Assembly (NCBI GenBank): GCA_035570235.1 | Contig: DATMML010000042.1 | Coordinates: 62,001-126,000 of the forward strand | DNA: 64,000 nucleotides | From: Vicinamibacteria bacterium | GTDB taxonomy: Bacteria; Acidobacteriota; Vicinamibacteria; Fen-336 | Direction: 5' to 3' | Part shown: in pieces, positions 51,935-64,000 of the stretch | How positions within the stretch are numbered: the stretch's first letter is position 1 | Layout of the letters: each line of letters begins with the position of its first letter | Notes under the pieces: generated by a model | The model's input: only the letters and a program-made list of their open reading frames with translations | What the model was told of the DNA's origin: nothing | Database searches by the model: none | Position numbers and translations under genes: made by a program

Positions 51935-53098
51935 TCAGGATGGGTTCCCGCGCGGGGGCCGGCGCTCCGCGACCACCGTCACCTGCATGTCCTTGGCGAG
52001 ATGTACGACCCTCATGGCGGTGTGCCTCTTGTTCAGGAGGGGGATGAAACGCTTGGACGGCTTGGCAAGGAAGATCTGCGTGACCCCATTTCGGCGTGCG
52101 AAGTCCACCAGGACCTCCGCCTCGTCCCTCCCCTCCAGCACTCGGGCCTCGATGTGCAGCTTCCGCGCGAACTCCAGATGCCGCTCGAGCGCCTCGCGGG
52201 CCTCCTTCGCCAGCTCCTCGAGGCGGCCGGAGACCAACACCGACACGGCAAAGCAGTCGGCCTTTAGGTAGTCGGCGACGCGTCGGCCACGCCGGATCAG
52301 GCCCACGGTGGCGAGCGACTCCGTCAGGTGAATGAGAATCCGCTCCCGGGCCTCGGCCGTTGCCGTCGAGGGCAAGATGCTGGGCCTCGGGTCGGGCGGC
52401 GGAGCATCCAGGTCGACGGCGTCTCGTTGCCGCACATCGATTTCGTGCGCGGTCTGCCGAAGGGCCATCTCGCGTAACGCGGCCAGCGTGGACTCCTTGA
52501 AGAAGTTCTCCATCGCGCGCTCGGCCTTGTCCGGGCCATAGACCGCCCCCCGCTCCAGTCGATTGAGAAGGGCCCGCGGGGGCAGGTCGATCAAGATGAT
52601 CTGGTCCGCTTCCTTGACTACCCAGTCGGGAATGGTCTCCCGAACCTGGATGCCGGTGATCTCACGCATCTGATCGTTGAGGCTTTCCAGATGCTGAACG
52701 TTCATGGTCGTGAGCACCTCGATGCCGGCCTCGAGGAGCATCATCACGTCTTCCCAGCGTTTGGTTCGAGCCGAGCCCGGCACATTGGTGTGCGGGAATT
52801 CGTCGACGGCGCAGATCTCGGGGTGCCGCGCGAGAATGGCGTCCGTGTCCATCTCCTCGCACTCGTGCCCGCGGTACTCCATGCACCGCCGGGGGATGAC
52901 TTCCAGTCCCGCCAATTTCGCGATGGTGTCCTGGCGACCGTGCGGCTCAAAGTAGCCGACCACCACATCATGTCCCTGCGCCTTCAGCTGTTGAGCTTCC
53001 TCCAGCATCCTGAACGTCTTCCCCACTCCCGCGGCATACCCCAGGAAGACCTTGAGCCGGCCCTTCCTGATCGCCGCCAGCCCTTCCGCTTGGCTCAT
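51935..53098 (-). CDS. Free-standing KdpD N-terminal domain plus Usp domain protein
   Basis: 387 residues. The KdpD-type ATPase domain occupies ~12-215: Walker A GYAAGVGKTF at 20-29, the histidine-rich DEFPHTNVPGS motif and the LNDQMREITGIQVRET stretch. Residues ~250-380 are a Usp (universal stress) fold as in KdpD. There is no transmembrane region, GAF or kinase part, so it is not a truncated KdpD ending by accident: the stop follows the Usp domain directly. No kdpFABC is nearby. It overlaps the related upstream gene by 4 bases. Possibly a K+- or c-di-AMP-responsive accessory protein; this is inference. Confidence 0.8.
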   Translation of the reverse strand: MSQAEGLAAIRKGRLKVFLGYAAGVGKTFRMLEEAQQLKAQGHDVVVGYFEPHGRQDTIAKLAGLEVIPRRCMEYRGHECEEMDTDAILARHPEICAVDEFPHTNVPGSARTKRWEDVMMLLEAGIEVLTTMNVQHLESLNDQMREITGIQVRETIPDWVVKEADQIILIDLPPRALLNRLERGAVYGPDKAERAMENFFKESTLAALREMALRQTAHEIDVRQRDAVDLDAPPPDPRPSILPSTATAEARERILIHLTESLATVGLIRRGRRVADYLKADCFAVSVLVSGRLEELAKEAREALERHLEFARKLHIEARVLEGRDEAEVLVDFARRNGVTQIFLAKPSKRFIPLLNKRHTAMRVVHLAKDMQVTVVAERRPPRGNPS

Positions 53099-54201
53099 GA
53101 GTGGGGGAATATCCGGACGTCGATCCCGTCCGCTCCCAAGATCAGTCGCTCGACGGGGTTCGGTCGCAGGCGGCTCATCCAGCCGGCCTCCTGGCTATGG
53201 CCGACGAAGATCTGGGTGATGCCGTGCCTGGCTGCAAATTCCAGAATGGCCCGGATCGGATCCGCGGCCCGTAGGATCTCGACGTGGGCCTTGGCCTCGC
53301 GGGCACAAGCCAGATTCTGCTCCAGCACTTGGTCATCCGTGGGGCTGGATTGCTGCTGCTGGACGTAGATCACGTGGAGATCGCCATGGAACCGGTCCGC
53401 CTGCCGGCGTCCACGATGGATCATCACACTCGCGTTCGACCGCGGCGTGATGCAGACGAGAATGCGCTCGTGGGGCCCATAGGCTTGCTCGATTCCCTGG
53501 CGACGGAGGTAGTCCTCCAGCTGTTGATCGACGACCTCCGCGGCGAGGACAAGGGCGATCTCTCTCAACTGGGACAGCTGCCGCTCCGCTCGAGAAGGGT
53601 CCACAGCCGGGTCCCCCCCCTGTAGATAGCGGGTGACGCAATACTCCGGAGGGGCGTCCACCACCTCGATTTCGTCGGCCGTCCTCAGGAACGATTCCGG
53701 AACGGAGTCGGTCGCAGACTTCCCCCGAATGGCCTCTACCGCCGCCTGCCTCTCTTTGACGTACTGCAGGTTGATGGAGGTGATGACGGAGATGCCGGCC
53801 GACAGGAGCTCTTCGACGTCCTGCCACCGCTCAGAGTGCTTGCTGCCGGGGGGGTTCCGGTAGGCCAGGCCATCGATGAGGCAGACCTGGGGATGCCGGC
53901 GAAGCACGGCCGGGAGGTCGATGGCGGAGCTTCCCAGATCGGTACGGGGGGCAATGACTTCGAAGCCTTGCAGGAGATCTCTCACATCCGCCGGAGCCGA
54001 GGGCTGGGTGGCCGCGACCACGACGTCCTGGCCTCGCTTCTTGCGCCGCCGGCCCTCATCCAGCATCCGGAACGACTTTCCGACCCCCGAGGCGTATCCC
54101 AAGAAGACCTTCAGCTTCCCCCGCAGCCGGTGACGCTCTTCCGCCTCTACGCGCTTGAGAAATTGCTCCGGGCTGGGGCGGACATAGTCCCTGTCGGGCA
54201 T
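53095..54201 (-). CDS. Second KdpD N-terminal/Usp protein, motif-diverged paralogue
   Basis: 368 residues from ATG 54201 (frame open further but unsupported). Walker A is GYASGVGKSF at ~35-44. The conserved DELAHTN-type motif has become DGLAYRNPPGSKHSERW, so the acidic and histidine residues are replaced. A Usp fold fills ~235-365 (ILVCITPRSNASVMIHRGRR). It is upstream of, and overlaps, its paralogue; they are clearly homologous but well diverged. A structural or regulatory partner role, with reduced ATPase function, is inferred. Confidence 0.78.
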   Translation of the reverse strand: MPDRDYVRPSPEQFLKRVEAEERHRLRGKLKVFLGYASGVGKSFRMLDEGRRRKKRGQDVVVAATQPSAPADVRDLLQGFEVIAPRTDLGSSAIDLPAVLRRHPQVCLIDGLAYRNPPGSKHSERWQDVEELLSAGISVITSINLQYVKERQAAVEAIRGKSATDSVPESFLRTADEIEVVDAPPEYCVTRYLQGGDPAVDPSRAERQLSQLREIALVLAAEVVDQQLEDYLRRQGIEQAYGPHERILVCITPRSNASVMIHRGRRQADRFHGDLHVIYVQQQQSSPTDDQVLEQNLACAREAKAHVEILRAADPIRAILEFAARHGITQIFVGHSQEAGWMSRLRPNPVERLILGADGIDVRIFPHS

Positions 54202-54278
54202 GTCTCGGTAGCCTACCCTCTTTGGACCTCTCTCGGCCACCACCACCGGAACAGCCACCTGACGGCCACCCGACAGCC

Positions 54279-54307
54279 TTGACGCGGGAGGGAACGGTGG
54301 ATAGTCT
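54279..54307 (+). promoter_or_regulatory. Possible sigma-70 promoter of the Ser/Thr kinase gene
   Basis: TTGACG (54279-54284), exact 17-base spacer, TAGTCT (54302-54307), about 70 bases before the start codon. The -10 box is a half match. Confidence 0.4.
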
Positions 54308-54379
54308 GAGCTGCAAAGTGGACGCCACGCGCACACGTTAAGGCAGAGCCCGCTCCGAACGACATCGGGGACTGAGCCC

Positions 54380-56968
54380 GTGAAACTCTCCCTCGGGACC
54401 ACCCTCGGCCCGTACGAGATCGCCGGCCTGCTCGACACCGGCGGTATGGGCGAGGTCTACCGTGCGCGTGACCTGCGCCTGGGCCGTGATGTCGCGGTCA
54501 AGATCATCCGGGACGGGGCGAGTGCCCAGTCGGGCATGCTCGAGCGTTTTGAGCTCGAGGCCAAGTTGGCCGGGCGGCTCAACCACCCTAACATCCTCGC
54601 TATCCATGACGTAGGAACTCACGACGGTGCGCCGTATCTGGTCATGGAGCTGCTCGAAGGCGAGACCCTCGCGGCCTCCCTCGCCCGGGGGCCGATCCCG
54701 CCCCGCAAGGCTCTCGACCTCGCCCTCCAGATCGCGACCGGGCTGGCCGCGGCGCATGCCAAGGGTGTCATCCATCGCGACCTGAAGCCGTCCAACGTCT
54801 TCCTGACCAAGGATGGTCAGGTCAAGATCGTCGATTTCGGCCTGGCGGAGCCCCTGCTCTCCACGACTCCCCCCGACAGCTCGATGGCGACGACCTCCCC
54901 CGTCCTCGCGAGCCCGGAGCGCGTGATGGGAACCGCCTCCTACATGTCCCCCGAGCAGGTACGGGGTGAGGCCGCGGATCAACGCAGCGATATCTTCTCT
55001 TTCGGTGTCGTCCTCTACGAGATGCTGATGGGGCGGCGCGCCTTCCAGGCCCCCAGCGGCGTCGAGACGCTCAGCGCCATCCTGAACACCGAACCGCTGG
55101 GCCTGGGCGACGCCTCCGGAATCCTGCAGCCGGGCGTGGAGTCGCTGCTGCGCCACTGTCTCGAGAAGTCGCCGGACGCGCGTTTTCAGTCGGCCCGTGA
55201 CCTGGCCTTTCACATTTCCTCCCTCGCGGAGGACCCGACGTCGGGCCGCCATCCCCTGATCCCGGGGAACCGGCGACGGCTGACGCCGGCCGCGCTCACC
55301 CGCGCCACCATGGCCGCCGCCCTCGTCCTCGCCGCCGCCGCCGCCTACTACGCGGGGGCGCGCGGGGGCCGAAATGCCATCCCTTCTTACCAGCCCCTGA
55401 CCTTCCGCCGCGGGCTCGTTATCTCCGCCCGCTTCGGCCCCGACAGCCAGACCGTGGTCTACGGGGCGGCCTGGGACGGGCAGCCGGTTCGACTCTTCAC
55501 CACCCGCCCCGGAAGCCCGGAGTCCACTCGCCTTGACCTCCCGGATTCCGACGTGCTTGCGGTCTCTCGTTCCGGCGAGATGGCTCTCTCCCTCGGCCGG
55601 CACTTCACGTTGGGGCTCGAGACGCGGGGCACCCTGGCCCGGGTGCCCCTCTCGGGGGCGGCGCCGCGGGAGATGCTTACGGACGTGGAGTCGGCGGACT
55701 GGGCCCCCGACGGCACTGGCCTGGCCGTGATTCATGTCGTGCAGGACCACTACCGCCTCGAGTTCCCGATCGGACGGATTCTCTACGAGACCGGCGGCTG
55801 GCTCAGTCACGTGCGCTTCTCGCCGGACGGCCGTGCGATCGCCTTCATCGAGCACTCCGTCCGCAGCGACGATCGGGGCGAGATCTCGGTGACCGACCCC
55901 GGGGGCCGCAGCCGACGCCTCCTGTCCGCGGGGTGGTCGAGCGCGAATGGCCTCGCCTGGCGGGAAGACGGCAAGGAGGTTTGGTTCACGGCCTCCGAGG
56001 TCGGGCCCCGCTCCGCGCTCTACGGCGTCGACCTCTCGGGGAGGCGACGGCTTCTCACGCGGGCCCCCGGACGCCTCAAGCTGGAGGACGTGCGGGGAGG
56101 CCACATCCTCCTGACCGAGGATCGCTTCCGTCTCCAACTCGCCCTGCGCGAAGCAAGGGGGGCGGAGCGTGATCTCTCCTGGCTCGACGGCGGCACCCTC
56201 ACCGACCTCGCGGACGACGGGAGCGTGGTCGTGTTCAGCGAGCAGGGGGCGGGCGCGGGGGCGCCGTCCGGCTCCGTCTACCTGCGGCGGACAGAGGGCT
56301 CCCCTCCCGTCCGGCTTGGCGAAGGCTGGATCGGCGTGCTCTCCCCGGACGGGGCCTGGTGCGCCTCCGTCGTGCTCACGAGCCCACCCTCGCTCGTCTT
56401 GCTGCCAACGGGGCCGGGGGAACTACGGACCGTCGAACCGGGTGGCCTTGCCCATTTCGAGGCGTTGGCTTGGTTTCCCGACGGCCGGCGCCTCCTCATT
56501 GCGGGGGACGAGCCGGGGCGCGGAGTCAAGATCTACGTCCAGGAGGTGGGTCAGGGACGCCCGCGGCCGATCTCCCGCGAGGGGTTTCATTTCCCCTATG
56601 GCTCGCGCCCGATCGCACCGGACGGAAAGCGGATCGCGGCTCTCGACCCTGAGGGTCGCGTGGTGCTCTACCCCGTGGATGGAGGAGACCCGGAAGCGGT
56701 GCTGGGCCTCGACCCCGGGGACACCCCCCTACGCTGGGGAGCGGACGGGCGATCCCTCTACGTGACCCGCCGGGGCAGCCTGCCGGCCCGGATCTGGCGT
56801 GTCGACCTCGCCCGCGGATCGAAGGGGCTCACGGCAGAACTCTCGCCCTTCGACCGCGCGGGCGTCATGAACCTGATCGCGGCTCAGGTCACCCCCGACG
56901 GGCGCACCTTCGCCTACAGCTACTCCAGAACCCTCTCGGACCTTCTCCTCGTCGAAGGCCTGCCGTAG
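54380..56968 (+). CDS. Ser/Thr protein kinase with TolB-like propeller
   Basis: 862 residues from GTG 54380. The PknB-type kinase domain (~8-275) has a G-loop LLDTGGMGEVYRARD, catalytic Lys in VAVKII, HRD in GVIHRDLKPSNVF, DFG in KIVDFGLAEP and GTASYMSPEQVRG. One transmembrane helix is at ~310-330 (LTRATMAAALVLAAAAAYYA). The extracytoplasmic part (~340-862) consists of WD40/TolB-like blades (VRFSPDGRAIAFIE, LSPDGAWCASVV, QVTPDGRTFAYSYSR). This kinase-propeller design is frequent in Acidobacteria. It probably senses an envelope signal. Confidence 0.92.
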   Translation: MKLSLGTTLGPYEIAGLLDTGGMGEVYRARDLRLGRDVAVKIIRDGASAQSGMLERFELEAKLAGRLNHPNILAIHDVGTHDGAPYLVMELLEGETLAASLARGPIPPRKALDLALQIATGLAAAHAKGVIHRDLKPSNVFLTKDGQVKIVDFGLAEPLLSTTPPDSSMATTSPVLASPERVMGTASYMSPEQVRGEAADQRSDIFSFGVVLYEMLMGRRAFQAPSGVETLSAILNTEPLGLGDASGILQPGVESLLRHCLEKSPDARFQSARDLAFHISSLAEDPTSGRHPLIPGNRRRLTPAALTRATMAAALVLAAAAAYYAGARGGRNAIPSYQPLTFRRGLVISARFGPDSQTVVYGAAWDGQPVRLFTTRPGSPESTRLDLPDSDVLAVSRSGEMALSLGRHFTLGLETRGTLARVPLSGAAPREMLTDVESADWAPDGTGLAVIHVVQDHYRLEFPIGRILYETGGWLSHVRFSPDGRAIAFIEHSVRSDDRGEISVTDPGGRSRRLLSAGWSSANGLAWREDGKEVWFTASEVGPRSALYGVDLSGRRRLLTRAPGRLKLEDVRGGHILLTEDRFRLQLALREARGAERDLSWLDGGTLTDLADDGSVVVFSEQGAGAGAPSGSVYLRRTEGSPPVRLGEGWIGVLSPDGAWCASVVLTSPPSLVLLPTGPGELRTVEPGGLAHFEALAWFPDGRRLLIAGDEPGRGVKIYVQEVGQGRPRPISREGFHFPYGSRPIAPDGKRIAALDPEGRVVLYPVDGGDPEAVLGLDPGDTPLRWGADGRSLYVTRRGSLPARIWRVDLARGSKGLTAELSPFDRAGVMNLIAAQVTPDGRTFAYSYSRTLSDLLLVEGLP

Positions 56969-56973
56969 AGGGA

Positions 56974-57005
56974 GCCGGGATGGAGCGGCCCCGCTCCATC
57001 CCGGC
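56974..57005. terminator. Strong bidirectional hairpin
   Basis: A perfect 15-base inverted repeat, GCCGGGATGGAGCGG against CCGCTCCATCCCGGC, with only two bases between the arms. It lies between the stop codons of the kinase (56968) and the short peptide gene (57019) and could end both messages. No U-run on either strand. Confidence 0.6.
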
Positions 57006-57018
57006 GGCAACGCGGGCT

Positions 57019-57111
57019 CTAGCCGGGGCCGATGCAGGCGGCGGTCTTCTTCTTCTTCTTGGCCGGCTTCTTGGTGGTCTTCTTCTTGGCCGCCTTCTTC
57101 TTTTTTGCCAT
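57019..57111 (-). CDS. Lys-rich 30-residue peptide, candidate RiPP precursor
   Basis: A 30-codon gene on the minus strand. The ATG (57111-57109) shares its A with the TGA of the radical SAM gene (TGATG), and GGAAGG lies 5-6 bases upstream, so translation is well supported. The peptide starts MAKKKKAAKKKTTKK, carries 14 lysines in all within the first 22 residues, and ends KTAACIGPG. The two-part shape, a basic front and a short neutral tail with one Cys, one Ile and Gly-Pro-Gly, looks like leader plus core. The alternative is a histone H1-like nucleoid or RNA-binding peptide. It is followed by the hairpin at 56974-57005. No homologue is known to me. Confidence 0.65.
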   Translation of the reverse strand: MAKKKKAAKKKTTKKPAKKKKKTAACIGPG

Positions 57112-59192
57112 CAGTCCTTCCTTTCATCGATATAGGGGATACCCACGAGCTCTCCGATCCGCAGCTCGCCTTCGCCGTTGATCACGAAATGCGAGGGCGC
57201 CAAAGCGGAGGGACGGCGGCGCCCCCGGGTGAGGGGTCGACCCAGCGCGCGGACCACGGCGTGAAAACGCTCCACCACGGCCCGGGTGGGGGCATACTCG
57301 CCGAGGGGAACGGCCAAGGCGAGAAAACGCGTGCCCTCCCGGATCACAAGGCCGGCGTCCACGAGCCGTCCCAGGCGGTCCTCGATTTCCTCGACCGTCG
57401 CCGCCTCCCGACCCCGTCCACCGGTGGCGTCCGCCAGGCTGCGCAGGTCGACGGCGGCATCGCAAGCCAAATAAAGGAGCCGGTCGAGACCGCTCAGAAC
57501 CGTGAGGGGCTGGCGGGCCGCTGGCCTCAGGTCCCACGCCAGCAGGCGTCCGCCCGCGTCCACGCTAAAGAGGTCGCTGTCTCCGCGACTGGACGTCCTT
57601 GCCCATGCGCGGAGCGCTCGGACGAGTGGGCGCACGTAGTCGTCCACGTTACGAGGCTCCCGGTAGGTAAAGCCGAAGAAATAGGCCAGGTTGGCGCGGG
57701 CCTCTCCGCTCAGGGCGGGGTAGAGGAAGTGGTAGGACGGAAGGGGCACCACCTCCTCGAGCCCCAGCCGCTCCGCCTCGAAGAAGTTCGGGCTGAAGCG
57801 GTCGAGGCGGAGGTCCGAGAAGCCGATCGGCGGAGCCAGGTGCGCGAGTTTCGGCACCAGGCGCGCCATGCGGGCGTACTCCGCGGGGTCTTCTCCGGGG
57901 AAGCCCCAGATGATGTTCCAGTGGGGCTCGACGCCCACCTCCTTGCACCATTTTAGGAGCTGGATGTTCTGGAGACCCGTCACCCCCTTGCGCATGATCT
58001 TGAGAACGGAGTCCGAGAAGCTCTCGATCCCGGGCTGGATCCGGCGCACCCCTGCCTGGCGCAGGAGCCGGACCTGGTCCTTCTTGAGGTTGGACTTGGT
58101 CTCGTAGAAGAGGTCGACGCCCAGACGCCGCTCGGCGAGGGCGGGGAGGAAATCCTTGAAATAGCCCATGTCCAGGATGTTGTCTGTCACTTGGATGTCA
58201 CAGCCCGGATGTTCCGCGGCCAGCTGCGCGAGCTCATCGACGGCCCGGCGCGCGGACTTGCTCCGATAAGTCATGCTGGATCCGTTCAGACCGCAGAAGG
58301 TGCAGTGGCTCCTCTCGCCCCACCAGCAACCACGGGAGGTCTCGAAGAAGAGGCTCGCCTCCCACTCTCGGGGGTAGCGGCTGGCCCCGAACTGGTCGAA
58401 GAAGTCGCTGAAGTCGGGATAGGGCAGGTCGTCCAGGCGAGGAGTCGTGGGCGCGTTCGGGAACGTGCCCCGGCGGAACTCCTCCTCGACCCCCTCTCTG
58501 GTCCGAACCCCGGGCAGGCCGGAAAGGGGCCGGGAGGCGAGGGCGCGGCGCGCCAACTCCGGCAGGACGTACTCCCCCTCCCCCGAAACCACCGCGTCCA
58601 GGAAGGGAAACTGGCGCACGGCCTCTGCCCCCATGACGCCTTCGCAGTTGGCCCCGCCCATCACAACCATCGTCTCGGGGAGGGCCTGCTTGATGCGCCG
58701 GGCTAGAGCCAAGGAAGCCAGGTGTTGCTGAAAGGTGCTCGTGAAGCCCACCAGGGCCGGACGGTCGCGCACGATCTCGGCCAAGCAGGCCTCGAGGAAA
58801 GGCGCCACCGCTGCTCGAACGCGGCGGATGCGGCGGGCGCGGGCCGCGGTGACCGGCTTGGCGGAGCCCCGGTAGGTGACGGGATCCGGACGCCGCAGGA
58901 CCTCCGCCACGTAGCGATCCTCATCCTCCGGGCACGAGGGGAAGAGCGCGCTCGAGAAGATCCACTCGCCGGCGAGCGTGATCAGCGGCGGCCGTCCCTC
59001 GGCCGCGATGTCGGAATAGAAAGCCTGGCCGATCCGCTCCGCGAAGTCGAGGGAGAAGTAACGGACGCGCGCGGCCATCCCCTGGGCCGCGAGGCTCGCT
59101 TTCAGAAGGCTGAGGGCAAGAGACGGCGAGAAGAGGGGGCCAAAGGGCATCGACACGAGCCACACGCTCCTCAACTCCGTCGCCCTGCTCAT
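57111..59192 (-). CDS. B12-binding radical SAM protein, RiPP-maturase (rSAM_ocin_1) type
   Basis: 693 residues from ATG 59192; the longer upstream frame is not protein-like. Residues ~8-250 match a cobalamin-binding region with the family-typical VGFTSTFQQHLASLALARRI and VMGGANCEGVMG. The iron-sulfur cluster cysteines are Cys289, Cys297 and Cys300 in SRGCWWGERSHCTFCGLNG, the CX7CX2C spacing of ribosomal-peptide maturation radical SAM proteins, not the CX3CX2C of generic enzymes. SAM-barrel motifs FYETKSNLK, QPGIESFSDSVLKIMRKG and WNIIWGFPGED follow. Residues ~562-630 look like a winged helix (LDRLLYLACDAAVDLRSLAD, then VDAGLVIREG), which could act as a leader-peptide recognition element. C-methylation of a peptide is the likely reaction. 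Coupled to the 30-residue peptide gene. Confidence 0.85.
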   Translation of the reverse strand: MSRATELRSVWLVSMPFGPLFSPSLALSLLKASLAAQGMAARVRYFSLDFAERIGQAFYSDIAAEGRPPLITLAGEWIFSSALFPSCPEDEDRYVAEVLRRPDPVTYRGSAKPVTAARARRIRRVRAAVAPFLEACLAEIVRDRPALVGFTSTFQQHLASLALARRIKQALPETMVVMGGANCEGVMGAEAVRQFPFLDAVVSGEGEYVLPELARRALASRPLSGLPGVRTREGVEEEFRRGTFPNAPTTPRLDDLPYPDFSDFFDQFGASRYPREWEASLFFETSRGCWWGERSHCTFCGLNGSSMTYRSKSARRAVDELAQLAAEHPGCDIQVTDNILDMGYFKDFLPALAERRLGVDLFYETKSNLKKDQVRLLRQAGVRRIQPGIESFSDSVLKIMRKGVTGLQNIQLLKWCKEVGVEPHWNIIWGFPGEDPAEYARMARLVPKLAHLAPPIGFSDLRLDRFSPNFFEAERLGLEEVVPLPSYHFLYPALSGEARANLAYFFGFTYREPRNVDDYVRPLVRALRAWARTSSRGDSDLFSVDAGGRLLAWDLRPAARQPLTVLSGLDRLLYLACDAAVDLRSLADATGGRGREAATVEEIEDRLGRLVDAGLVIREGTRFLALAVPLGEYAPTRAVVERFHAVVRALGRPLTRGRRRPSALAPSHFVINGEGELRIGELVGIPYIDERKD

Positions 59193-59208: not shown

Positions 59209-59237
59209 ATTCTCGACAGGCGTTGCGGCGGTGTCAA
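59209..59237 (-). promoter_or_regulatory. Promoter candidate of the radical SAM/peptide unit
   Basis: Minus strand: TTGACA (59237-59232), exact 17-base spacer, GAGAAT (59214-59209). The predicted start near 59202 leaves only about 10 bases before the ATG at 59192 and no Shine-Dalgarno, so the message would be almost leaderless. Confidence 0.5.
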
Positions 59238-59415
59238 GAAAAAATCCCGCCCCAGATCGCCCGCGCGGAGCATCCCAAGCCCCGGTGTTCGCTCATGGCC
59301 CTCGATCTTTTCCGGGCTATGATGGCGCCCGGTTCTCGTGCCCACCGTGATGCGACCGAGGGAGCGTCGTCCCGGAGAAGCGGGGTATCGTTGCCGGGTC
59401 TGGGATCGGCCCGGG

Positions 59416-60777
59416 ATGGAGTGGCAGGTGCGCGATTTCAGGGCGGGCCGCGGGGAGCGGAGGTCAGGGCCGGGGCGAGCAACGTGGTGGTGCGGCGTCC
59501 TCGCGCTCGTTCTGCTCGGGGCGAGGGTAGGGGCCGCGGACGGCTTGACGCTGGAGGAGGCGCTCGCCCAGGCCCAAGCCGCCAATGCCCGGCTTCCGAT
59601 CGCGGCCCGGGAGGTCGAGGTCTCCCGGCAGAAGGAACGGGAAGCCCGGGCCGAGCGCTGGCTCAAAGTGTCGCTGGAGGGGGACGTGATCTATGCGCCG
59701 CCCTCCAGCTATGACGCCACGGTGACGAACCTGGGCGAAGAGCGCTTCCAGGTCATCGGCCGGCAGCCCCTCTATGACGGAGGCGCGCGGCGGGCCGCGG
59801 TCCTGCGCGCCCAGGCCGGGACCAGCGCGGCCAGCGCCCGCCATCGCATGGCCGTGAAGGACGTGGATCTCGAGGTGCGGGGGCGCTTCGGCGAGTGTGC
59901 GCAGGCGGAGAGCGAGGTCGCCGCGCGGCGGGAGGGGATCGAACGTCTGCAGCGGTACCGCACCTGGCTGCGCAGCCGCCAGGTCTCGGGTCAGGGAGTG
60001 GCGGCCGATCTCCTGAAGACCGACGTTCGCCTGGCTTCCGAGGAGGCGGATCTGGCCGGGGCCGAACGCCGTCGTGACGGGGCCCGGCTGGAGCTGAACG
60101 ACCTCATGGGGCGGGACCCCCAGACGGCGCTTGAGCTGGCCCCGCTTCCGGACCCGGCGCCACCTCTCGGCGCCGAGCCCGAGGCCTGGCGAAAGGCGCC
60201 GGAGCTCTTAGAGGCGGAGGCGAACCGCCGGTCGGCAGAGTCCGATCTCCACATCGCCCGCGCGGAGCGAAAGCCAGTGCTCTTCGCCAGCGCCGACGCC
60301 GGCCTCTGGGGGTCGGACACCTCCCATCTCCTTCCTCCCGATCTCAAGGCCGCCACCCCCGACGCCGGCTTCGGCGACCGCCTCCGCCGGGACGCCGGCT
60401 ACTCCTTGAGCGTGACCCTCTCATGGCCGCTATGGGATCTCGGCGGTCGCCGTGCCCGCCTCGCCCAGGCCGAGCTCGCCTTGAGCCAGGCCAGTGGGCA
60501 GGAGGAAGTGCAACGGCGCCAGGCGCGGCTCCAGTGGGAACAGGCCCGCGTGGCCATCGCCGGGGCCTACCGGGAAATCCTGATCCTGTCCCGGGCCCTT
60601 CCCGACGCCCGGGACTCCTATCTCGAAGCGGAGAGCCGATACCGGGGTGGGGCCGCCTCCTCGCTCGAGGTGCTGGAGGCCCACACTGCGTCCGTGGACG
60701 CAGCGGTGCGTCTCTCCGAAGCCATGCTGCGCTACCGGATGGCGGAGGCCCTGGCCATCCGCTGGGGTACCCCATGA
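59416..60777 (+). CDS. TolC-family outer-membrane efflux protein
   Basis: 453 residues from ATG 59416; the frame reaches 59338, but the signal peptide (VLALVLLGARVGAADG) fits the later start better. Two OEP repeats: the first begins LTLEEALAQAQAANARLP, the second near residue 240. Long alpha-hairpins and beta stretches (YSLSVTLSWPLWDLGGRRARL) match TolC-like proteins. The stop overlaps the membrane-fusion gene by 4 bases. Divergent from the radical SAM gene with 223 bases between the starts. Confidence 0.88.
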   Translation: MEWQVRDFRAGRGERRSGPGRATWWCGVLALVLLGARVGAADGLTLEEALAQAQAANARLPIAAREVEVSRQKEREARAERWLKVSLEGDVIYAPPSSYDATVTNLGEERFQVIGRQPLYDGGARRAAVLRAQAGTSAASARHRMAVKDVDLEVRGRFGECAQAESEVAARREGIERLQRYRTWLRSRQVSGQGVAADLLKTDVRLASEEADLAGAERRRDGARLELNDLMGRDPQTALELAPLPDPAPPLGAEPEAWRKAPELLEAEANRRSAESDLHIARAERKPVLFASADAGLWGSDTSHLLPPDLKAATPDAGFGDRLRRDAGYSLSVTLSWPLWDLGGRRARLAQAELALSQASGQEEVQRRQARLQWEQARVAIAGAYREILILSRALPDARDSYLEAESRYRGGAASSLEVLEAHTASVDAAVRLSEAMLRYRMAEALAIRWGTP

Positions 60778-61757
60778 GGCGGTGGGCCCTCGCTCTGGCC
60801 TGGCTTGGCTTCACGACCGCCTGTCAGCGTACCCCCGCGACGGAGGCCGAGAAACCCGGCCCGGAGGGGGGCTCGGGGGCCACGCCCGTCCATGTGGTCG
60901 GGGTCGCCCGCGCCACGTTGCCGCACGTCGTCACCGGACCCGGGCGAACGCTGGCCCTGGTCCAGCAGAAGGTGCGGGCCCCCTTCACGGGGACGCTCCT
61001 CGAGCTTCTCGTAACCGACGGCGACCCCGTCCGCCGCGAACAGATCGTGGGCCGGATCGTCTCCCGCGAGAGCGAAGCCGCCCTCACCGGCGCACGCCAG
61101 ATGAAGGCGGAGGCCCAAACCCCGAGAGAGAAGGAGGACGCCGAGCGCGCGCTGGCCCTGGCGGAGGCCAGGCTGGTGCGCGCGCCTCTCCTGGGCGCGG
61201 CGGAGGGCGTCGTCCTCTCCCACGCGGCCAGCGCCGGCGACCGGGTCTCCGAGGACCAGGAGATCCTCACCATCTCGGCCGCGGACTCCCTGGTCTTCCA
61301 GGCCGACATCACCCAGGCGGACCTGCCCCTCATTCACGCCGGCCAAGGGGCGGAGGTCGTGGTGCCCGGGCGCCCGCGGAGCCTGACCGGGCTCGTCCAC
61401 GGCGTATTGGCCGCCGCCATCGCGAGCGACCTCACCGTGCCCGTGCGCATCGACCTCGTACCCCTCCCCCCGCGCCTCCCCGTGGGGCTCTTCGGGACCG
61501 CCCGCATCACCGTGGGCGAGCGACGCAACGTGCCCGTGGTTCCGCCCGCCGCGGTCCTGCGCGACGACGTCAGCGGGCTGTCGCGGATCGCGAGCGTGAG
61601 CCAGGAGGGGCGCGTGCATTGGATCGCGGTCACCACCGGCCTCGTGGATGGTGAGCGGGTGGAGATCCTCTCCCCCGAGCTGGGCGCGGAAGAGCGGGTG
61701 ATCGTCTCCGGCCAGGTCGGCCTCCCGGAGGGCAGTCCCGTCGACGTCCAGCCATGA
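60774..61757 (+). CDS. RND efflux membrane-fusion lipoprotein
   Basis: 327 residues from ATG 60774 (the longer frame is a shadow of the TolC gene). A lipoprotein signal ends at FTTAC (Cys near residue 17). The lipoyl/hairpin region (VRAPFTGTLLELLVTDGDPV; VVLSHAASAGDRVSEDQEIL) and beta-barrel domain (FQADITQADLPLIHAGQGAE) fit HlyD/AcrA-type adaptors; the alpha-hairpin is short. It bridges the RND pump and the TolC-like channel. Overlaps both neighbours by 4 bases. Confidence 0.88.
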   Translation: MRRWALALAWLGFTTACQRTPATEAEKPGPEGGSGATPVHVVGVARATLPHVVTGPGRTLALVQQKVRAPFTGTLLELLVTDGDPVRREQIVGRIVSRESEAALTGARQMKAEAQTPREKEDAERALALAEARLVRAPLLGAAEGVVLSHAASAGDRVSEDQEILTISAADSLVFQADITQADLPLIHAGQGAEVVVPGRPRSLTGLVHGVLAAAIASDLTVPVRIDLVPLPPRLPVGLFGTARITVGERRNVPVVPPAAVLRDDVSGLSRIASVSQEGRVHWIAVTTGLVDGERVEILSPELGAEERVIVSGQVGLPEGSPVDVQP

Positions 61758-64000
61758 CGCTTCTTCGGCGCAGCCACCAGCGGGCCACCGCCATCTTCCT
61801 GCTCGTGGCGATCCTGGCCGCGGCCGGCCTTTTTCTGGCCCTCGACCTCCCCTCCTCCATCTTCCCCTCCGTCACTTTCCCCCTCGTCAAGGTCATCGCG
61901 GATGTGGGAGAGGAACCCGCGGCCCGGATGATGCCCACGGTTACGCGCCGCCTCGAGGAGGCGATCCACCGCGTGGTGGGGGTGCGGCGCGTGCTCTCCA
62001 CGACCTCGCGGGGCTCGACCGAGATCGCGGCCGAGTTCTTCTGGGGCACCGACATGCAGGTCGCGCTGCAGCGGGTGCAAGCCGAGGTGCAGCGGATCCG
62101 CCCCGATCTCCCCGCGGACGCGCGGATCGACGTGGAGTGGATGAACACCTCGGTCTTCCCGGTTCTCGGCTACGCCCTCACCTCCGACTCCCGTGCCGGG
62201 GCCGAGCTGTGGGATCTGGCCGAGTTTGGTCTCAAGCCCCGCCTGATCCGGATTCCCGGGGTCTCCCAGGTGCAGATCCAGGGCGGGCGCCGGCGCGAGT
62301 TCCAGGTCCGACTCGATGCGCAGGGCCTGGCCGGGCGCAAGCTATCCCCCGCGGACGTGGTGGATGCCATCCGAAAGAACAACCAGATCCAGTCCGCGGG
62401 ACTCATCGAGCAAAACCATGAGCTTTACCTGTCCCTGGTGGACGGTCGCGCGCGGGGCCTGGCCACGCTCTCCCAGATTGCGATCCCCGTGCCCGGGGGC
62501 GGGGTCCCCGTCCGCCTCGGTGATCTCGGCTCCATAGCGGCCGGGGAGGCCGTCTCCTATATCCGCACCACGGCCAATGGGCGTCCGGCCGTACTCATCA
62601 ACATCATCCAGCAACCCTCTGCGAACACCCTGACCATCGCCCAGGGGGTGGCCGACCTGGTGAAGGCCCACCCTGAGCTTCTGCCCCCCGACGTCCACTG
62701 GAGCACGTTCTACGACCAGGCCGAGTTCATCCAGAGCTCGGTCCACGGCGTTCGGGAGGCGATCCTCATCGGGGTGGCTCTGGCCGCCCTGGTGCTCTTC
62801 TTCTTCCTGCGCGACCTGCGGGTAACCCTGGTGGCGGTGGCCACCATCCCCCTCGCGGTGGCGCTGGTTCTCCTGGGGCTGGCCGTGTGCGGCCAGACCG
62901 TGAACCTCATGACCCTGGGTGGCATCGCGGCCGCCATCGGACTCGTGGCCGACGACGCCATCGTCGTGGTCGAGAACATCCACCGCCATCGCGAGACGGG
63001 CGCCTCTCCCGACCCCGCCCAATCGGGCACGGCCGAGATTCTGCCCCCCCTCATTGGCTCGAGCCTCTCCACCATCGTCGTCTTCCTTCCCTTCGCCCTC
63101 CTGGCCGGCGTGGCCGGAGCCTTCTTCCGTCCCTTGGCTCTGACCATGTCGCTGGCCCTGCTGGTCTCCTTCCTGTTGTCCGCCTTCGTGGTGCCGGTTG
63201 CGGCCCGGGTCCTCGAGCGTCGAGGCGGGCGGGAGCCGGTGCCCTCCACCCCCTCTCGCTTCGCCCGCCTCGTCCAGTTCCTCCTGCGCCACGCCTCCGT
63301 AGCGGCGGTCTTGGTTCTAGTGCTGCTGGCGGGGGGTGCTGTCCTCTACACCCGCATGGGAACCGACTTCCTGCCCGCGATGGACGAAGGCTCGATCATC
63401 CTCGATTACTGGACACCGCCCGGGACCGCGCTCACTGACACCGACGCCATGCTCAACGAAGCGGAGAAGATCATCCTCTCCATCCCCGACGTGGAGGGGT
63501 ACTCCCGACGAACCGGGACCCAGCTCGGCTTCTTCATCACCGAGCCCAATCGCGGGGACTACATCATCCGCCTCAAGCCCAGATCCGGCCGCCGGGGCGT
63601 GGACGCCGTGACCGACGACCTGCGCCAGCGGATCCACGCCGCCGAGCCCGCTATCCGCACGGACTTCGGCCAGCTCCTGGAGGACAACATAGGAGATCTG
63701 ACCGGCGGCGTTCCCCAGCCGATCGACATAAAGGTCTTCGGCGAGGACCAGGCCACCCTCCAGGAGAAGGCACGGCGCGTGGCCGAGATCGTTCGGGGAG
63801 TCCAGGGGGTGGAGGACGTGTTCGACGGGATTGTGATTGCCGGACCCGCCCTCCAGGTCCGGGCCCGCCCGCTGGAGTTGGCCCGTCACGGCCTCACCAC
63901 GGAGGACCTGCACGAAGCCATCCAGCCCGCGCTGGTGGGGACGGTGGCGGGAGACCTGCTGATCGGAGAGCGCGTCTACGACATCCGCGTCTTCCAGCGT
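61754..64000 (+). CDS. RND efflux transporter permease, 3' truncated by window end
   Basis: 749 codons are visible; family members have about 1030. TM1 (TAIFLLVAILAAAGLFLAL) is followed by the porter domain (ARMMPTVTRRLEEAIHRVVG) and TM2-TM6 from residue ~335. TM4 carries the proton-relay aspartates in GLVADDAIVVVENIHRHRE, as in AcrB/HAE-type pumps rather than heavy-metal pumps. The second porter half starts near residue 530 (MGTDFLPAMDEGSIILDY), a sequence style also seen in CzcA-like members, so the subfamily is open. Substrate unknown. Confidence 0.9.
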   Translation, partial: MTLLRRSHQRATAIFLLVAILAAAGLFLALDLPSSIFPSVTFPLVKVIADVGEEPAARMMPTVTRRLEEAIHRVVGVRRVLSTTSRGSTEIAAEFFWGTDMQVALQRVQAEVQRIRPDLPADARIDVEWMNTSVFPVLGYALTSDSRAGAELWDLAEFGLKPRLIRIPGVSQVQIQGGRRREFQVRLDAQGLAGRKLSPADVVDAIRKNNQIQSAGLIEQNHELYLSLVDGRARGLATLSQIAIPVPGGGVPVRLGDLGSIAAGEAVSYIRTTANGRPAVLINIIQQPSANTLTIAQGVADLVKAHPELLPPDVHWSTFYDQAEFIQSSVHGVREAILIGVALAALVLFFFLRDLRVTLVAVATIPLAVALVLLGLAVCGQTVNLMTLGGIAAAIGLVADDAIVVVENIHRHRETGASPDPAQSGTAEILPPLIGSSLSTIVVFLPFALLAGVAGAFFRPLALTMSLALLVSFLLSAFVVPVAARVLERRGGREPVPSTPSRFARLVQFLLRHASVAAVLVLVLLAGGAVLYTRMGTDFLPAMDEGSIILDYWTPPGTALTDTDAMLNEAEKIILSIPDVEGYSRRTGTQLGFFITEPNRGDYIIRLKPRSGRRGVDAVTDDLRQRIHAAEPAIRTDFGQLLEDNIGDLTGGVPQPIDIKVFGEDQATLQEKARRVAEIVRGVQGVEDVFDGIVIAGPALQVRARPLELARHGLTTEDLHEAIQPALVGTVAGDLLIGERVYDIRVFQR

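Follow-up and report, generated by a model that had tools for sequence, protein, structure and literature searches.

The window analyzed here is a stretch of 64,000 nucleotides from a Vicinamibacteria bacterium (assembly GCA_035570235.1, contig DATMML010000042.1), and the locus under study is a pair of genes at positions 57019–59192 on its minus strand. The first gene (57111–59192) encodes a 693-residue B12-binding radical SAM protein (rSAM) of the TIGR03975 family, as judged from a profile match, Pfam domains and an AF2 model; the second (57019–57111) encodes a 30-residue Lys-rich precursor-like peptide, MAKKKKAAKKKTTKKPAKKKKKTAACIGPG, recognized as an ORF and through its homologues, which contains 14 Lys and ends in TAACIGPG. 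The two genes share one nucleotide within a TGATG overlap (rSAM stop codon TGA, 57113–57111; peptide ATG, 57111–57109), and the peptide gene has its own Shine-Dalgarno (SD) sequence, GGAAGG (57116–57121, −). The original prediction had described this overlap and the 30-codon gene exactly to the base, and the 14 lysines and the tail are likewise present. Comparison of 19 related peptides suggests a division into a Lys-rich leader-like part (residues 1–22; 57046–57111) and a variable tail, the putative core (TAACIGPG, residues 23–30; 57022–57045).

A promoter-like site, TTGACA-17-GAGAAT, matching at 10 of 12 positions, lies 5′ of the rSAM gene (59209–59237, −; one such site found vs. 0.2 expected). 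On the other side of the pair, a long inverted repeat (56974–57005; z −3.0; no T run) separates the peptide gene from a convergent gene for a Ser/Thr protein kinase with a TM segment and a PD40 beta-propeller (54380–56968, +), and likely marks the end of the transcript.

The window rSAM matches the full length of the TIGR03975 profile (positions 1–606 of 606) with 657.9 bits against a cut-off of 281.85, and both PF02310 (B12-binding) and PF04055 (radical SAM) are matched; by full-length score it is a RiPP maturation radical SAM C-methyltransferase of this family, peptide C-methylation itself being predicted. Both motifs on which the original prediction had relied are in place: the CX7CX2C [4Fe-4S] motif (58293–58328, −), whose cysteines C289, C297 and C300 are invariant across 40 homologues, and the GGANCEG motif of the B12-binding region (residues 179–185; 58638–58658, −), seen in the sequence and in homologues. 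CX7CX2C has been described in PoyC and in the bottromycin methyltransferases, enzymes that methylate Val, among other residues, at C-beta (PMC5682303). An AF2 model computed with 40 homologues as input (pLDDT 88, pTM 0.89) has B12 radical SAM enzymes, e.g. OxsB, TokK, TsrM and CysS, as its best PDB matches.

The C-terminal part of the model (residues 541–625; 57318–57572, −), to which the original prediction assigned recognition of the basic leader, is predicted to fold as a winged helix with the order b-b-b-a-a-a plus wing, the strand/helix order by which the RiPP recognition element (RRE) is defined (PMC12710340). A Foldseek search with this RRE-like domain returned mostly general winged helices, with the lasso RRE TbiB1 (5v1u) at rank 18 (E 0.057). 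The acidity of the domain does not exceed that seen in relatives that lack a Lys-rich peptide. At the level of single residues, Asp332 (58197–58199, −) is invariant in the clade of rSAMs that carry a Lys-rich peptide (16 of 16) and absent from near relatives (0 of 11), which makes it a candidate specificity residue by alignment; positions 65, 570, 582 and 632 are mostly acidic in the same clade. A clade-specific acidity that could explain poly-Lys binding was not found, the net charge of the clade enzymes being not lower than that of relatives.

A protein search with the peptide alone retrieved only itself, because low-complexity queries fail; instead, ORFs were scanned next to rSAM homologues, which came from the window's class (193 genomes), a phylum sample (396) and a second class (149). 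The rSAM is single-copy in its own genome by protein search, and a scan of a collection of genome contigs with this single query gave one distant match. Every rSAM in the closest clade (identity from about 52% upward), which spans 16 genomes and two or more classes of a single phylum, has a short Lys-rich ORF next to it, so that the clade holds no homologue lacking an adjacent peptide, an absence that had been named in advance as evidence against the pair. The 19 peptides of these genomes are 16–59 residues long, with 47–83% K+R ahead of a tail of 5–11 residues; all 19 have an SD of the GGAAGG type, and in most the distance from the rSAM stop codon to the peptide start is about 40 nt or less. 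In most genomes the peptide lies directly downstream of rSAM; G005 has two peptides upstream of an rSAM that is split over two contigs, G007 carries a tandem of two rSAMs that have a peptide apiece, and the rSAM frame is broken in the assembly of G153. In a maximum-likelihood tree, 13 of 13 rSAMs with a Lys-rich peptide fall into one clade (support 100/98); three further genomes, from the second-class search, were found after the tree was made.

These comparisons bear directly on whether the peptide gene is simply an open frame that AAG repeats produce by chance. Such repeats do open other registers, and a 132-residue ORF overlaps the peptide gene in another frame. However, the 16 genomes agree in reading frame, in SD, in length class and in the pattern of the tail, and a filter for Lys-rich ORFs (ATG start, 14–70 residues, at least 30% Lys) found 19 ORFs over 420 kb around clade loci, every one of them adjacent to rSAM. 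The same filter applied to 237 kb around distant TIGR03975 loci gave only three ORFs, dissimilar to the clade peptides, and no comparable Lys-rich ORF was seen beside TIGR03975 genes outside the clade. In the 5.7 Mb of the window's own genome, dense AARAARAAR pairs occur at only one place besides the peptide gene. Because homologous Lys-rich ORFs with an SD adjoin every clade rSAM, the ORF is more than chance; the comparison of genomes in effect refutes a chance frame, and we regard that explanation as extremely unlikely.

The tails are as follows: TAACIGPG in the window's genome (G000), PVAIMS in G008, AQRQVF in G040, QGPVKAF in G153, PTGVKS and GMVRGG in the two tandem pairs of G007, PVGDIFN in both G084 and G109, PKVGCIFPG in G123, VGCIFEG in G121, PAGCIYN in G111, PMTGCIYP in G118, PAAVDR and LLPVER in the two upstream peptides of G005, APKADISNGQD in G231 together with ITAIFGNPTA beside a second, partial rSAM match, DAGMI in G641, DVGLI in G644 and DVGLV in G643. 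All 19 contain Ile or Val within the final seven residues, often as G-x-[IV], a modest piece of evidence given that more than half of random 7-residue tails would contain one; Ile27 of the window peptide occupies this position. A short C-terminal tail as the core, as originally proposed, thus agrees with the comparison, but its definition as Cys-Ile-Gly-Pro-Gly does not: Ile/Val, and not Cys or Pro-Gly, is what the homologous tails share, and the suggested search for Cys-x-Gly-Pro-Gly endings beside rSAM homologues showed that ending not to be conserved. In the duplicated pairs of G007 and the duplicated peptides of G005, the Lys part is kept and the tails differ. The clade as a whole keeps the predicted combination of a maturase with a candidate substrate, whose leader-like portion is rich in Lys and whose C-terminal portion is short and variable; a short precursor gene beside a maturase, with conserved leader and variable core, is one general mark of RiPP systems, and it is seen here for 19 peptides.

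TIGR03975 enzymes usually partner with Nif11 or NHLP leaders; the window enzyme, a member of these C-methyltransferases by full-length score, is instead paired with a poly-Lys leader. The expectation that this leader would be unlike both types held, as no Nif11 or NHLP match was found among peptides of 20 residues or more, and no NCBIfam or Pfam family was matched by the poly-Lys part. Its composition raises another explanation: that this small peptide functions by binding the nucleoid, RNA or polyanions with its Lys stretch, rSAM capping or tuning the C-terminus and no cleavage taking place. The composition is like that of the Lys/Ala tails of histone H1-like proteins, and the homologues give weak matches to the HC2 profile (best E 0.0034; no match for the window peptide). 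Moreover, tail-less Lys-rich mini-ORFs occur without rSAM: two in tandem in the window's own genome, of 16 residues each, MPAKKKASKKATKKKK and MKAMKKKKKAAPKKKR (L131 9171–9418; G000:C103, ~47.2–47.4 kb), and one in G040, MAKKKAAKKKATKKKATKKKTKKKAAKKK (L132 9325–9414). All three have SD-like sequences and G+C-rich inverted repeats downstream, with a T run in two of the three; the Lys part can therefore have another use. That no protease shared among the clade loci was found also fits such a reading.

The original prediction had held that wide occurrence of the Lys-rich peptide without rSAM would speak for a nucleoid-type peptide; such mini-ORFs do exist, yet they are rare and tail-less. A MAKKK start pattern across the class mainly picked up proteins of ordinary kinds, such as ribosomal S11-like and FtsA-like ones and response regulators, and among 30 sampled matches the only Lys-rich mini-genes were the window peptide and the tail-less mini-ORF of G040. 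Peptides with a tail, by contrast, were observed only next to rSAMs of this clade; it is the tail that the tail-less ORFs lack and that duplicated copies diversify. Likewise, H1-like and HC2 proteins resemble these peptides in being Lys/Ala-rich but differ in that the peptides are shorter than 60 residues, have a specific tail and are tied to rSAM. A nucleoid-type function is therefore, in our estimation, unlikely, and the poly-Lys leader may have been recruited from a tail-less Lys-rich mini-protein.

The system was originally thought to consist of just two genes, which proved too narrow: a Hanks-type Ser/Thr kinase lies within 5 kb of rSAM at 15 of 15 clade loci on contigs long enough to be testable, vs. 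three of 20 distant TIGR03975 loci (Fisher p 3e-7, although the rows are related by descent). For comparison, the window's own genome encodes 50 kinases in 5.7 Mb, or one per 114 kb. Three gene orders occur: kinase-rSAM-peptide, all co-directional and separated by short gaps or overlapping slightly (G040, G109, G111, G118, G121, G123, G153); rSAM-peptide followed by a convergent kinase (window, G008, G007, G641, G643, G644); and rSAM-peptide-kinase (G231). The C-terminal half of the kinase consists of a PD40 propeller or TPR repeats, and the kinases of G641, G643 and G644, from another class, are at least 50% identical to that of the window, propeller half included. A kinase also adjoins rSAM in the close relatives G439, G519 and G603, and the link may therefore predate the Lys-rich peptide. 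Ser, Thr and Tyr are all missing from the peptides of G121 and G123 and from one of the two in G005, which makes it unlikely that the peptide itself is the target of the kinase.

No exporter shared among the clade loci was found, and the window's other neighbors do not recur at the other loci. Divergent genes resembling TolC/HlyD/RND efflux genes by eye (59338–63998, +) start ~150 bp from the rSAM gene; they were considered as an exporter and rejected, since they were not found at other clade loci. Two adjacent genes at 51935–54438 (−) both resemble, by eye, the KdpD N-terminal sensor domain.

Outside the clade, a 57-residue candidate precursor is encoded upstream of a sister-clade rSAM in G185 (L069 5525–5698) and G183 (L070 7806–7979); the two are nearly identical, KKVRGG-FFDVFTEVSATGAKKP, and have no NCBIfam match. 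At a further locus, L146 (G212:C53), TIGR03975-like enzymes are densely arrayed, with five matches in 14 kb. That this sister lineage has a different precursor candidate, and that the close relatives G349, G439, G217 and G519 have no clear one, could mean that rSAM really acts on something else, be it a small molecule, a protein or a different peptide, and that the Lys-rich peptide is an accessory, e.g. a regulatory element. We consider this distinctly improbable: an SD-preceded peptide adjoins the enzyme constantly across the clade, and the upstream placement in G005 speaks against a mere downstream regulatory ORF.

We therefore favor, as probable, a RiPP pair in which a peptide with a poly-Lys leader and a core of 5–11 residues is modified by the B12 rSAM, most likely by beta-carbon methylation of Ile/Val (Ile27 in the window), with the kinase belonging to the same functional module as a regulator or sensor rather than acting on the peptide. 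In such a scheme, transcription would run from the promoter-like site (59237–59209) to the hairpin (56974–57005), and translation of the peptide would be coupled to that of rSAM; the enzyme would recognize the Lys part and methylate the tail, probably at Ile27, a choice made because of the enzyme class and because Ile/Val is common to the tails. It is from gene linkage that we infer the action of the enzyme on the peptide, and the modified residue, the reaction, leader removal and export are put forward in the same conditional sense; that the kinase regulates or senses is speculative. A RiPP-based signaling module is a tentative proposal, possible but not probable: the poly-Lys precursor would give rise to a methylated short peptide, and the adjacent kinase (with a TM segment and beta-propeller, or with a C-terminal half of TPR type) would either sense this peptide or tie its production to the state of the cell.

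Bottromycin biosynthesis employs a follower peptide, YcaO enzymes and three rSAMs, whereas the loci described here have an N-terminal basic leader and one rSAM. The bottromycin rSAM methyltransferases are nonetheless similar in being CX7CX2C B12 enzymes that act on a very short core (PMC5682303). The proteusins (polytheonamide, PoyB/PoyC) share a CX7CX2C B12 rSAM and the likely chemistry, methylation at C-beta of residues that include Val (PMC5682303), but have a long NHLP leader in place of a precursor of 16–59 residues, and no second maturase was recognized among the recurring neighbors here. We found nothing in the open-access literature on Lys-rich leaders or a kinase association for such enzymes; the kinase linkage is new here.

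In conclusion, the recurring pair and its kinase point to an undescribed family of modified peptides, most of which are probably missed by gene callers. If our reading is true, this would be a family of RiPPs made by B12 radical SAM enzymes from very small precursors, one of them only 16 residues long, with a leader type that escapes leader-based mining, and it would provide a compact test bed for residue selection by a B12 radical enzyme in a tail of 5–8 residues. The kinase linkage makes the role of the peptides for their producers directly testable.
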